Virus record (IMG/VR): IMGVR_UViG_3300032220_000304
Location: 1-35,301 of that record
Direction: 5' to 3' (one strand)
Origin: a virus
DNA: 35,301 bases
Made by a program: the position numbers and the translations under genes. Every line of letters starts with the position of its first letter. The stretch's first letter is position 1. Positions 3,638-35,301 of the stretch are shown here, piece by piece. The notes below the pieces were generated by a model that made no database searches, was not told the origin of the DNA, and saw only the letters and a list, made by a program, of their open reading frames with translations.

Positions 3638-5200
3638 ATGGCAGGCAGACCCAAGCGGCGGGCTAGATTAGCAGCGGAGGCGGCGGCGCGAGCCGCTGCC
3701 GAAGCGGAAACCAATGGTGGCGCCCCACCAGCCGAAACCATTTCGCTGACATCAGCAAAATGGTCTGAAGCACCCCCACCCCCTGCTGCCCCCGCTGCTC
3801 CGACACCCGAGGAACAGGCGGCAATCATCGAGCAACTGGCGACAGACCCGGTGTTGTTCGTTGAATCGATGCTTGGCGCCACCCCGCAAAAGTGGCAGGC
3901 TGATGCGCTCAGGGCCATCGCCAGTAATGACCGTGTAGCGATTCGCTCCGGCCATGGCGTTGGCAAAACCGCGTTCTTGTCCTGGCTGGTGTTGTGGTGG
4001 TTGCTTACCAGATTGCCAACCAAGGTGGTTTGCACCGCCAACACGGCGCACCAGTTGTCTGACGTCTTGTGGTCTGAGATCGGGAAGTGGCACCGCAAGC
4101 TGCCCGAGGGAATGCGGCGCCTCCTCGAAATCAAATCCGACAAGATCGAATTGGCTGGCGTCCCCGACAGCTTCGCGGTGGCCAGAACCAGCCGCCGGGA
4201 GCAGCCCGAAGCCTTGCAGGGGTTCCACAGTGAGAACCTTCTCTTTGTGATTGACGAGGCATCTGGCGTCCCTGATATTGTATTCGAGGTTGGTCAGGGT
4301 GCCTTGTCCACTGAGGGCGCCAAGGTGGTAATGACCGGGAACCCCACGCGCACCACGGGTTATTTTTATGATGCGTTCAACAAGAACCGCAAGCGGTGGT
4401 GGGGCAAGAAGGTCAGTTGTCACGATGCGGATACGGTGGACAAGGCTTTCTTAGAGGACATGGTGGCGCAGTATGGTGATGGGTCAAATCAGTATCGTGT
4501 ACGCGTTCTTGGAGAGTTTCCTGCTGGAGATGATGATGCTCTTATTGCGCGACATCTTATAGAGAGTGCGACTACCAGGCCGGTGGAACCCAGCCAAACG
4601 GCGCCCGTGGTGTGGGGGTTGGATGTGGCGCGGTTTGGCGATGACAGTACGACGCTGGCCAAGCGCCGGGGCAATGCGATTACTGAGCCGATTAAGATGT
4701 GGCGCGGCAAAGACCTGATGGAAACGTGTGGTTTGATCAAGGTTGAGTGGGATGCGACGCCCGGCAGTATGCGGCCCCAGGAAATCTTGGTCGATGTGAT
4801 TGGCTTGGGCGCGGGTGTGGTGGATCGGCTGCGTGAATTAAAACTCCCCGTCCGTGGGATCAACGTCGCGGAGTTACCAGCATTGGATGGGCACCGCTTT
4901 AGCCGCCTAAGAGATGAACTCTGGTGGAAGGCTAGGGAGTGGTTTGAGCAGCGGGATTGCACCATTCCGAATGATGAGGCTTTGGTGGATGAGTTGTGTG
5001 GTCCGCTGTACACGGTGACGAGTGCGGGCAAGATACAGATTGAGCCGAAGTCTCAAATGAAGCGGCGGTTAGGGCGCAGCCCCGACAAGGCGGATGCTTT
5101 TTGTCTTACCTTTGCCAGCACGGCGGCGGTGGTCAGTGGTGGTGGGTATTCGTTGAAGTGGGGCCAGCCATTGCGGCGCAATGTGAAGGGGGTTGTGTGA
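3638..5200 (+). CDS. terL: Terminase large subunit (packaging ATPase/nuclease)
   Basis: This 520-residue motor and nuclease packages DNA into the prohead. An Ala/Pro-rich N-terminal tail (1-58) precedes the ATPase domain. Walker A is RSGHGVGKT (103-111), Walker B is LLFVIDEA (201-208), and TGNPT (233-237) fits the coupling motif. The RNase H-fold nuclease shows the expected acidic residues: D329 in GLDVARFGDDS, D386 in ILVDVIG, and D483/D486 in RSPDKADAF. All key residues are present, so the enzyme should be active. Its stop overlaps the GTG of the glycosyltransferase gene. The ATG at 3638 has only a weak AGG-type ribosome binding site. Confidence 0.96.
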   Translation: MAGRPKRRARLAAEAAARAAAEAETNGGAPPAETISLTSAKWSEAPPPPAAPAAPTPEEQAAIIEQLATDPVLFVESMLGATPQKWQADALRAIASNDRVAIRSGHGVGKTAFLSWLVLWWLLTRLPTKVVCTANTAHQLSDVLWSEIGKWHRKLPEGMRRLLEIKSDKIELAGVPDSFAVARTSRREQPEALQGFHSENLLFVIDEASGVPDIVFEVGQGALSTEGAKVVMTGNPTRTTGYFYDAFNKNRKRWWGKKVSCHDADTVDKAFLEDMVAQYGDGSNQYRVRVLGEFPAGDDDALIARHLIESATTRPVEPSQTAPVVWGLDVARFGDDSTTLAKRRGNAITEPIKMWRGKDLMETCGLIKVEWDATPGSMRPQEILVDVIGLGAGVVDRLRELKLPVRGINVAELPALDGHRFSRLRDELWWKAREWFEQRDCTIPNDEALVDELCGPLYTVTSAGKIQIEPKSQMKRRLGRSPDKADAFCLTFASTAAVVSGGGYSLKWGQPLRRNVKGVV

Positions 5201-27550: not shown

Positions 27551-28570
27551 ATGGTAGCCAAGACTGACCGAGACGCCATCAAGGCGGCTTATGAAGCGGT
27601 AGCGGAGCATGGTTCCGTTATGGTAGCCGCGAAAGCAAAGGGGTTACCGTATGAGACAATGCGTAACCGATACCAGCGCGCCATGCAGTTGTACAATAAA
27701 CCAGACATCCGCAGTTCAGCCCGCAGCCTAGCGCGCGAGCCGATCAGCAAGCCGTGGTCTGAGACTGAGGAACACAATAGCGCCCTGGTGATGGAGGTTC
27801 CCGCCATCAAGGACGGTGTGGGAATAGTTTTCTCAGACTGCCACTGGCGGTCATTATCTCAACCGCGCAGCTTGTCACATGAAGCCCTTTTGATTCTAGC
27901 CCGGCACATAAAGCCGGGCTTTTTGTTTTGTAATGGCGATGCGCTGGATATGGGGTCTGTTTCCCGCCATCCGCCGCTGATGTGGTCCGACAACCAGAAG
28001 CCCAATGTGGCGGAGGAACTCGCCGCCGGGCAAACCCACTTACGGGAGTTAAGGGAAGCCGCTGGCGATCCCACCTGTTACTGGATCAGGGGCAACCATG
28101 ATGACCGTTACGATAAATATCTTGCTGCCCATGCTGCCGCTTTTGAAGGTATGGGTGCCTTTAGTCTTCAGGACCAGTTTATAGATTGGCCTATGACCTA
28201 TCGCCTAGATGTGGGGGATGTGTCTTTCGTCCACCGCTACCATGGCGGAATACACGCGGGCTACAACAATGCCAGCCGCAGCGGCAGAACCATTATATCG
28301 GGCGACACCCATGCCCTGGATGTGCGCCCCCTGAACCATTGGTCTAAGCGCCTGTATGGCGTTCAAACGGGGATGCTGGGCGATCCTAACTGGCCACAGT
28401 TCAACTATCGCCTGGGCATCCCAGGGCACCAGCAACAGGGCTTCGTTGTCCTGACTTGGCGCGATGGCGCCCTGGCACCGCCAGAGACTTGCGAGGTTGT
28501 GGATGGCGCCGCATGGTTCCGGGGCCAGGTGATTTGCGGGCGTGTACGGATCAAAGCCGGGAGGGGGTAA
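27551..28570 (+). CDS. HTH-fused calcineurin-like metallophosphoesterase
   Basis: The start is ATG 27551; a longer frame from 27458 overlaps the preceding gene and is rejected. The 339-residue product has an N-terminal HTH-like helix pair (about 18-45, VMVAAKAKGLPYETMRNRY). It is followed by a metallophosphoesterase with D96/H98 (SDCH), GDALD (129-133), GNHD (181-184), H228 and GDTH (251-254), which supply the two-metal site. GDTH replaces the more common GHTH. DNA is a plausible substrate given the HTH. It stands between ejection proteins and lysis genes and contains an apparent terminator (27898-27929). Confidence 0.85.
   Translation: MVAKTDRDAIKAAYEAVAEHGSVMVAAKAKGLPYETMRNRYQRAMQLYNKPDIRSSARSLAREPISKPWSETEEHNSALVMEVPAIKDGVGIVFSDCHWRSLSQPRSLSHEALLILARHIKPGFLFCNGDALDMGSVSRHPPLMWSDNQKPNVAEELAAGQTHLRELREAAGDPTCYWIRGNHDDRYDKYLAAHAAAFEGMGAFSLQDQFIDWPMTYRLDVGDVSFVHRYHGGIHAGYNNASRSGRTIISGDTHALDVRPLNHWSKRLYGVQTGMLGDPNWPQFNYRLGIPGHQQQGFVVLTWRDGALAPPETCEVVDGAAWFRGQVICGRVRIKAGRG
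27898..27929 (+). terminator. Canonical intrinsic terminator inside the phosphoesterase gene
   Basis: AGCCCGGC (27898-27905) pairs perfectly with GCCGGGCT (27913-27920) around loop ACATAAA. TTTTGTTTT follows immediately (27921-27929). Stem, loop and U-tract meet the standard description, yet the element lies within codons for LARHIKPGFLFC. It could thin transcription before the lysis genes or depend on ribosome coverage or antitermination. Confidence 0.75.
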
Positions 28571-28573
28571 ACC

Positions 28574-28822
28574 ATGCGCCGTATCAAGATCGTCGATTCG
28601 GATGCGCCAGGGGAACACCACGAGGTGTCCTTTGCCGAAGCGGCCCAGCAGATGATCGCAACCGCCCTGGCGGATGGGGCGGTGGCGATCATGGTTACTT
28701 GGGAAACCCCGAGCGGCTACAAATACGCGGCGGTTCCGTACAGCCATGCGGTTCTGAGGGGGCTTTCGGATCAAGCCTATTCAGAACTCTGGATTAAGCC
28801 TGAAGAATCGGAGGATGATTGA
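28574..28822 (+). CDS. Small hypothetical protein before holin
   Basis: This 82-residue protein starts three bases after the phosphoesterase stop, behind a G-rich GGGAGGGGG site. The N-terminus is basic (RRIKIVDSD), the middle helical (FAEAAQQMIATALADGAVAIMV), and the C-terminus acidic (KPEESEDD). No membrane helix long enough for a holin is evident. It overlaps the holin start (TGATG), so it may be a lysis-module accessory. The family is not recognised. Confidence 0.78.
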   Translation: MRRIKIVDSDAPGEHHEVSFAEAAQQMIATALADGAVAIMVTWETPSGYKYAAVPYSHAVLRGLSDQAYSELWIKPEESEDD

Positions 28823-32185: not shown

Positions 32186-32214
32186 ATCCTAATTATCTCG
32201 CAAAATAACGTCAA
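32186..32214 (-). promoter_or_regulatory. Minus-strand early promoter
   Basis: On the minus strand TTGACG (32214-32209) and TAGGAT (32191-32186) are 17 bases apart. The -35 matches sigma-70 consensus at five of six positions and the -10 at four. Transcription would begin near 32179, giving a short leader before the ATG at 32143. Confidence 0.6.
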
Positions 32215-32217
32215 CTG

Positions 32218-32244
32218 AAAAAATACGCTTGACCCGTATTTTTT
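32218..32244. promoter_or_regulatory. Operator: 10+10 bp perfect inverted repeat
   Basis: AAAAAATACG (32218-32227) and CGTATTTTTT (32235-32244) are perfect reverse complements with a 7-bp spacer. The spacer holds the -35 box of the plus promoter. The left arm ends four bases from the -35 of the minus promoter, so a bound dimer could control both. The regulator gene starting at 32265 is the obvious candidate protein. Confidence 0.75.
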
Positions 32245-32257
32245 TCATCACTATCCT
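32229..32257 (+). promoter_or_regulatory. Plus-strand promoter of regulator, likely leaderless
   Basis: TTGACC (32229-32234) and TATCCT (32252-32257) have a 17-bp spacer. A start about seven bases on would be near 32264, at or one base before the ATG at 32265, which has no clear ribosome binding site. The -35 lies between the operator arms. Confidence 0.6.
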
Positions 32258-32264
32258 TTCGGCC

Positions 32265-32546
32265 ATGGATCACCTCCCTTACCGAAAGCTGCTTCAGCAG
32301 AACGGCTACACGCTACGCGATCTAGCCGAAGAGGCTGGCGTATCAACCGCCACTGCTAGTCGGTGGCTGATCTGGCTGACGTATCGCGGTGAATACGGGG
32401 GTATTGCGCCGCCTATCGTGCGGCTGATACCAGTGATTAGAATGTGTAGCACCCCAGAGGTGCCAATGAACGAGATTTGGGCGCATATCTGTACCGGACG
32501 CCGGGATGGACATTTGCCCGAAAAGGCTGCGCGCGATGGTAACTAG
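32265..32546 (+). CDS. Cro/CI-like HTH transcriptional regulator
   Basis: This 93-residue protein starts at ATG 32265; an ORF start at 32229 would lie in the promoter. Residues 1-40 form a helix-turn-helix of the XRE/Cro type (YRKLLQQNGYTLRDLAEEAGVSTATASRWL). The remaining 50 residues are not a typical CI oligomerisation domain and lack the Ser/Lys peptidase site, so it is closer to Cro or a short repressor. It should bind the palindromic operator immediately upstream. Its stop codon lies within the loop of the first of four stem-loops. Confidence 0.85.
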   Translation: MDHLPYRKLLQQNGYTLRDLAEEAGVSTATASRWLIWLTYRGEYGGIAPPIVRLIPVIRMCSTPEVPMNEIWAHICTGRRDGHLPEKAARDGN

Positions 32547-32680
32547 CCTCCCAACCATTGCGCGCCCGGCAGACCGGCGCGACCACTACGAACCCGCGAC
32601 AGTCTGCCGGTTAAACCGTCACGGTGACGGTACCTCCGCCAGCACTTTCAATATCCCCTCCCGAACTGTGCTGGCGGGGG
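32529..32680 (+). ncRNA. Four consecutive stem-loops between regulator and RusA
   Basis: Stem A: GCGCGC-g-ATGGT (32529-32540) pairs with ACCAT-t-GCGCGC (32554-32565). Stem B: CCGGCAGAC (32566-32574) with GTCTGCCGG (32602-32610). Stem C: ACCGTCAC (32615-32622) with GTGACGGT (32624-32631). Stem D: CCGCCAGCAC (32636-32645) with GTGCTGGCGG (32668-32677), extended by three further pairs. They tile the 141-bp gap after the regulator, none followed by a U-tract. An RNA regulator, antitermination element or origin is possible; the ncRNA label is provisional. Confidence 0.55.
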
Positions 32681-32687
32681 TCTAACC

Positions 32688-33086
32688 GTGAGAACCTGTA
32701 TCACCATCCCCATCGAACCTGTCGCCAAGGGGCGCCCCCGATTCGGCAAGCACGGCGCCTATACGCCAGCCAAGACCCGAAAGGCAGAGGAAACAATTCG
32801 GGCATTCATTTCCCCGTTCGATTCCTTTGGCGCTGTGCCGGTCTGTGTCGATGTCATGGTCCTGATGCCGATTCCCAAATCCTGGCCAAAGAAAAAGCAG
32901 GAAGCGGCGCTGGCGGGCGACATAGAACACACCGGAAAGCCCGATCTCGACAACCTGGCGAAGCTAGTCCTTGATGCCGCCAACGGCATCCTGTGGAACG
33001 ACGATAGCCAGATCATCAAACTACACCTTTCCAAGATGTACAGCGGGAAACCGGGCTACATCCTAATCATCGAGGCAAACCCGTGA
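32688..33086 (+). CDS. rusA: RusA-like Holliday junction resolvase
   Basis: This 132-residue protein starts at GTG 32688, shortly after stem-loop D. It has the RusA hallmarks: PVAKGRPRF near residues 11-19, and KPDLDNLAKLVLDAANGILWNDDSQI (84-109), with D86, D88, K92 and D105 in the positions of the catalytic and metal-binding residues. The family resolves four-way junctions and recombination intermediates of phage DNA. It is the first gene of the replication/recombination module and overlaps the nuclease gene by GTGA. Confidence 0.93.
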   Translation: MRTCITIPIEPVAKGRPRFGKHGAYTPAKTRKAEETIRAFISPFDSFGAVPVCVDVMVLMPIPKSWPKKKQEAALAGDIEHTGKPDLDNLAKLVLDAANGILWNDDSQIIKLHLSKMYSGKPGYILIIEANP

Positions 33087-34772: not shown

Positions 34773-34797
34773 GCGGCGGGTTACACCGCCGCTTTTT
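34773..34797 (+). terminator. Intrinsic terminator before primase gene
   Basis: GCGGCGG (34773-34779) pairs with CCGCCGC (34786-34792) around GTTACA, followed by TTTTT (34793-34797). This is a canonical rho-independent terminator ending the RusA-nuclease-SSB transcript. The primase genes downstream then need read-through, antitermination or their own promoter. Confidence 0.85.
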
Positions 34798-34881: not shown

Positions 34882-35301
34882 GCCTGACCGCACCAAGCCT
34901 ATCAGCGCCCGCCAAAGAATGGGCGCTCTATTACCTACGGCGCGGGTGGTCCGTGGTGCCGGTCAGACGGGGCGAAAAAATCCCCGCCATTCCCTGGCAC
35001 CAATTCCAAAACCGACGCGCTACCGAAGCCGAGATTCAGGACTGGTTTGCCGATCCCACCATGGGGGTCGGGATCGTGACCGGCGCCATCAGTAACCTCA
35101 CTGTGGCGGATTTCGATGGCGACATTGGCGCCGCTACCGAACAAGACATCCTGCCCCGACTCGGGGCTGGCCCCGTTGCCCTCACCGGGGGCGGCGGGTG
35201 TCATAGGTTCTTTTCCCATCCTGGGAAGAAGGTTCCCACCAGAAAAGGTATCCTGCCGGGGATGGACATCCGGGGCGATGGTGGCTTCATTGTCGCGCCG
35301 C
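34878..35301 (+). CDS. Primase-polymerase / helicase, N-terminal part (continues at base 3/124)
   Basis: The 141 complete codons here are the N-terminus of the replication protein that continues to 1754 through the 123-bp overlap. Prim-Pol-type features are visible: an N-terminal helix ending GWSVVPVRRGEKIPAIPW (about residues 23-40), a DWFADPTMGVGIVTG stretch (about 54-68), VADFDGD (74-80) as the metal-binding acidic motif, and VALTGGGGCHRFF (about 99-111). The ATG overlaps the leader ORF stop. The frame is open to the window end, in phase with the left end. Confidence 0.93.
   Translation, partial: MSLTAPSLSAPAKEWALYYLRRGWSVVPVRRGEKIPAIPWHQFQNRRATEAEIQDWFADPTMGVGIVTGAISNLTVADFDGDIGAATEQDILPRLGAGPVALTGGGGCHRFFSHPGKKVPTRKGILPGMDIRGDGGFIVAP
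35179..35301. repeat. Right copy of 123-bp terminal direct repeat
   Basis: Exact duplicate of bases 1-123. Joining the copies gives one continuous primase-helicase frame of 684 residues without a gap or frameshift. Confidence 0.95.

Follow-up and report, generated by a model that had tools for sequence, protein, structure and literature searches.

The window analysed here is the whole of a 35,301-nt stretch of viral DNA (IMG/VR record IMGVR_UViG_3300032220_000304), whose first 123 bases are identical to positions 35179-35301, so that the genome, about 35,178 bp long, is circular or terminally redundant, with the primase gene running across the join. By portal protein the closest named phage is Sinorhizobium phage phiM5, at 49% identity. 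On the + strand an early promoter is followed by a gene for a Cro-like HTH protein, an array of four hairpins (SL1 to SL4), the Holliday junction resolvase gene rusA and, before the primase gene, an intrinsic terminator (Table 1).

Table 1. Features of the early rightward operon on either side of the hairpin array
Feature	Coordinates	Strand	Details
Early rightward promoter	32229..32257	+	TTGACC-17-TATCCT; ends 7 nt before the HTH ATG
Cro-like HTH protein gene	32265..32546	+	93 aa; HTH_3, E 2.4e-5, above gathering score
SL1 hairpin	32529..32565	+	12-bp stem, 13-nt loop AACUAGCCUCCCA
Bridge open reading frame	32536..32685	+	49 aa; from SL1 stem across SL2-SL4 to the rusA start
SL2 hairpin	32566..32610	+	9-bp stem, conserved G.A mismatch, 4-bp apical stem, 13-nt loop
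SL3 hairpin	32615..32631	+	7-bp stem, short variable loop
SL4 hairpin	32633..32680	+	13-bp stem; pyrimidine-rich loop with CUCCC
rusA, Holliday junction resolvase	32688..33086	+	PF05866, E 7e-30; phrog_140
Intrinsic terminator before primase	34773..34797	+	GCGGCGG GTTACA CCGCCGC TTTTT

The hairpin array and its operon

An initial sequence-only reading had described four strong inverted repeats tiling about 150 bases with almost no gap, lying between the regulator and RusA genes and lacking U-tracts. The four repeats are confirmed as SL1-SL4 at 32529-32680. An inverted-repeat search returned arms at 32529-40/32554-65 for SL1 (92% complementary), 32566-81/32595-610 for SL2 (88%) and 32632-45/32668-81 for SL4 (93%), and SL3 as a palindrome at 32615-31. 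The spacing needs a small correction, in that SL1 and SL2 abut while 4 bases separate SL2 from SL3 and 1 base separates SL3 from SL4. The position is as described, although the array is not purely intergenic: the TAG stop of the HTH gene (32544-32546) falls within the SL1 loop. No T-run follows any of the four stems, as the earlier reading had held, which speaks against an array of intrinsic terminators.

The folding energy of the + strand array is -96.1 kcal/mol, compared with -67.2 +/- 4.7 in dinucleotide shuffles (z -6.1; none of 200 shuffles as good), and the - strand fold has a z of -3.7 against such shuffles. By folding energy the exact 152-nt stretch ranks first on the - strand and second on the + strand among 3518 windows of the whole sequence, and when G+C content is corrected for, its fold is still one of the strongest, exceeded only by that of a block at about 1741-1925.

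Similar promoter-HTH arrangements are present in those relatives whose contigs cover the promoter region, including the distant relatives L078 and L114. Because the HTH gene starts 7 nt past the -10 box, its mRNA is probably leaderless. The start of this putatively leaderless mRNA (32265-32285, AUGGAUCACCUCCC) includes the 16S rRNA 3'-end sequence GGAUCACCUCC, which is absent in L002, L078 and L114. Immediately to the left, at 32186-32234, the -35 boxes of divergent early promoters lie in an inverted repeat, CGTCAA..TTGACNCG, which is kept in relatives and is likely to be an operator.

Counted from the inferred transcript start, SL1 begins at about 264 nt in the window and at 345 nt in L005. 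It is the length of the HTH gene that fixes this distance, and since the L005 gene carries an 81-nt duplication the distance itself is not kept. The duplication (within L005 1442-1804) is an in-frame tandem repeat of the HTH C-terminus that ends in the 5' arm of SL1.

The terminator at 34773, which the earlier reading had called the next strong one downstream, is real, with hairpin and TTTTT tail legible in the sequence. A terminator-like hairpin with a T-rich tail precedes the primase gene in nearly all relatives whose sequence reaches that far, and it is kept in kind rather than in letters, at least three unrelated sequences serving among the relatives. A scan limited to the sigma-70 consensus found no + strand promoter between 32266 and 35301. 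Elsewhere in the window, the phosphoesterase gene contains a perfect terminator-like hairpin on the + strand, with a long T-tail, at 27898-27930.

A conserved RNA in three clades of phages

The four-hairpin array is real, and a family of phages conserves it as an RNA. Besides the window, the element is present in 19 phage contigs, of which one (L007/L032) begins inside it and so has only part. A RusA protein search of IMG/VR yielded 15 close contigs, pattern and protein searches added L029/L077 and L078/L099/L116, and an HTH protein profile search added L114/L115. The carriers fall into three clades, namely ten distinct close variants, L078 and L114, the HTH proteins of the latter two being 51% and 56% identical, respectively. 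In every carrier the element lies between the stop of the Cro-like HTH gene and the next gene. That next gene is not always rusA: in L077 the hairpins are unchanged and the element is kept exactly as far as the same GTG start codon, from which a 306-aa gene (4077-4997) with a borderline DUF1064 match takes the place of rusA.

An Rfam scan of the whole window gave no match at the gathering threshold, and searches of a phage collection with the DNA and with the HTH protein were likewise without a match. A pattern search of a genome collection returned six stretches whose predicted structures all lacked the four-hairpin fold, and these were taken as chance hits; among 385 genomes from the class of one such hit there was no HTH or RNA-model match, an empty answer that proves little. 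Two further pattern hits, L121 and L123, did not match the RNA model. The RNA is thus new in the sense that no curated RNA family describes the four-hairpin element; the kind of RNA is not new.

Covariation was one of the checks that the earlier reading had proposed, naming its absence among the grounds for rejection, and over the relatives it is clear. Pairing holds in 99.8% of cells among the ten close variants, with compensatory double changes at 6 pairs, in 18 cells as against 6.0 in shuffles, and no such pairs in slid controls. When the three clades are taken together (12 variants), double changes are found at 16 of 46 pairs and in all four helices, with 42 double-change cells as compared to 11.6 +/- 2.5 in shuffles (0 of 500 as high) and 0-2 pairs in slid controls; the three-clade alignment, made with the model, is biased in favour of the structure to which it was fitted, whereas the ten-variant alignment was not so fitted. 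SL3 has double changes at five of its seven pairs. The earlier preference for a structured RNA over chance or a terminator array is therefore supported by covariation.

The changes also bear on the strand. Seven pairs vary on one side only, all seven through G-U on the + strand, where the same changes on the - strand would be A.C mismatches, and the G.A mismatch of SL2 is kept in all variants. Together these point to an RNA read from the + strand and argue against palindromes kept by DNA repair. As judged from the aligned sequences, the array is a set of + strand RNA hairpins under selection.

Some of the loops are conserved in sequence. That of SL1, UAGCCUCCCA, does not vary among the three clades, and that of SL2 has the core ACUA(N)CGARCC, with 11 of 13 positions identical between the window and L078 and the core only loosely kept in L114; by contrast, identity between clades at fourfold-degenerate sites is only about 40-60% in the HTH and rusA genes. 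The SL4 loop is variable, yet it stays pyrimidine-rich and keeps CUCCC, a motif that each of the three clades has in both its SL1 and its SL4 loop. SL3 seems to serve structure alone. A putative factor, which may be a protein, an RNA or RNA polymerase, probably binds the conserved loops of SL1 and SL2.

A buried ribosome binding site and a bridging frame

Two features that the earlier reading missed point to translation. The Shine-Dalgarno (SD) sequence of rusA, GGGGG at 32676-32680, is the end of the 3' arm of SL4, and in computed folds of five representatives from the three clades its unpaired probability is below 0.01. The second feature is an open reading frame that links the HTH stop with the rusA start, beginning at an AUG or GUG in the SL1 stem. 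It is open in all 13 variants examined and stops at -5 or +1 of the rusA start; the distance from its start to rusA is 152 nt in the window, 149 in L005, 149 in L078 and 146 in L114, changing only in threes. An open frame is expected in 42% of random sequences with the same structure, so that openness alone is weak, and what carries the argument is chiefly the change in threes together with where the frame stops. The bridge frame has no strong SD, and in L078 the middle of the region is read in another frame. Its variable codons comprise 18 nonsynonymous and 3 synonymous cases, with radical changes; the codons vary freely, and the peptide is therefore not what is kept. An alternative pairing of SL3 with the rusA start codon, considered for the clade of the window, was dropped as impossible in L002, L078 and L114.

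The two marks of coupling by sequestration of a ribosome binding site are thus both found, the downstream SD being paired in the mRNA and the upstream frame reaching the downstream start, and unfolding of the RNA by the upstream ribosome is an established model for such coupling (PMC12548453). As in those gene pairs, SL4 hides the rusA SD and the bridge ends at -5 to +1; unlike them, this element has three extra conserved hairpins, two with conserved loops, and an unconstrained bridge peptide. In the iraD type of coupling, a short upstream frame is tied to the gene that follows it and CsrA acts as repressor (PMC5574718). The likeness lies in a short frame before a coupled gene and a possible RNA-binding regulator, and the difference in + strand loops that are C-rich rather than GGA.

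Possible roles of the element

Structured RNAs that control phage early operons are known from a handful of model phages. The present one, supported by covariation, absent from Rfam and carried by uncultured podovirus-like phages, offers a compact case in which the target of an early-operon RNA can be asked for directly: the ribosome, RNA polymerase or the two together. The explanation that we hold most plausible, at a likelihood not far short of even, is a cis-acting translational lock and relay from the HTH gene to the replication operon, which would govern the timing of DNA-replication gene expression, with the conserved loops probably bound by a putative factor. A ribosome finishing the leaderless HTH gene would melt SL1, restart on the bridge frame, pass through SL2 and SL3 and then melt SL4, and would thereby be handed over to rusA, or in one relative to the DUF1064-like gene that replaces it. 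If no such ribosome arrived, the rusA start would stay shut, and the SL1 and SL2 loops, by binding a putative protein, RNA or RNA polymerase, would set the lock. The intact element of L077, kept up to the start codon despite the replacement of rusA, would favour such a lock. Against it, simple coupling requires SL4 alone, and a constant passage of ribosomes across the element would leave SL2, SL3 and the invariant loops in need of a separate reason.

An RNA antiterminator of the put kind, suggested by the sequence-only reading, would have the nascent hairpins bind RNA polymerase and allow read-through of the pre-primase and later terminators; we regard this as possible but doubtful. In phage HK022, put RNA suppresses pausing and termination without any protein, through the zinc-binding domain of the beta' subunit. 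It measures about 70 nt and has two stems, each early promoter has its own copy, and its target is RNA polymerase. The putR copy is found about 270 nt downstream of PR (PMC9378689). The present element resembles it as a structured early-transcript RNA of tandem stem-loops without a U-tract, its loops conserved, at a similar distance from the promoter and after the Cro-like gene, a place that also recalls nutR after cro in the rightward early operon of lambda. A mid-operon terminator kept in kind while its sequence is replaced, together with the lack of an internal promoter in a scan confined to the sigma-70 consensus, suggests that there is room for antitermination, and the position and the terminator are compatible with the earlier suggestion. 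Unlike put, however, the element is 152 nt long, twice the size, with four stems and in single copy, no second copy being found in the window or relatives and no putL-like one on the leftward transcript; a covariance model search of HK022 22000-40751 gave no match, and the open frame and buried SD run through the array. Unlike nutR, it has 13-nt loops in place of the 5-nt boxB loop; no boxA with at most one mismatch was found between 30636 and 33539, and no N-like gene was recognised. A combination of the two roles is unlikely in our estimate, namely a new class of phage RNA, unrelated to put in sequence, whose four hairpins would tie processive antitermination to the translation of the first early gene, serving as a translation relay if ribosomes read them and as an antiterminator if not.

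The same loops could instead be the site of an RNA-binding protein of phage or host, a translational operator or a site of mRNA processing or stability, with no part for the bridge frame. The invariant SL1 loop, the SL2 core nearly invariant in two clades and the kept G.A mismatch, set beside synonymous sites only 40-60% identical, agree with such a site, as does the keeping of the array as one unit when rusA was swapped; with its partner only putative and the buried SD and its relation to the frame left unexplained, we consider this explanation unlikely. SD-targeting small RNAs with C-rich loops are known in RNAIII and the Cuckoo sRNAs, and a trans-acting small RNA made from the array could pair its CUCCC loops with SDs in the same manner. 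The likeness lies in these loops, shared by the three clades, and the difference in the want of a conserved target. A search for loop targets in the phage gave as best candidate a 9-nt match to the SD at 28558 of a gene at 28574, beside the lysis genes; chance alone would give that loop about four matches of 9 nt, and the complementarity is not conserved, being broken (GGACGGGGG) in about half of the relatives. The array also has no promoter or terminator of its own, and a small RNA is quite improbable. Perfect palindromes and nearby replication genes might speak for a DNA-level element (an origin, cruciform or recombination site) or for palindromes kept only by template-switch repair, but the G-U wobbles and the conserved G.A mismatch fit + strand RNA and the loops are conserved, which makes this very improbable. 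A small protein gene with chance hairpins, for which the frame open in all variants might argue, is refuted by the excess of nonsynonymous and radical codon changes with pairing kept, and is almost certainly wrong.

In the block at about 1741-1925, nested palindromes at 1755-1925, after the primase/helicase gene, give the strongest G+C-adjusted fold of the genome. This region is possibly an origin or a second structured RNA, and may be as interesting as the four-hairpin array. A similar nested architecture is present in L044, with a sequence that is almost entirely different.
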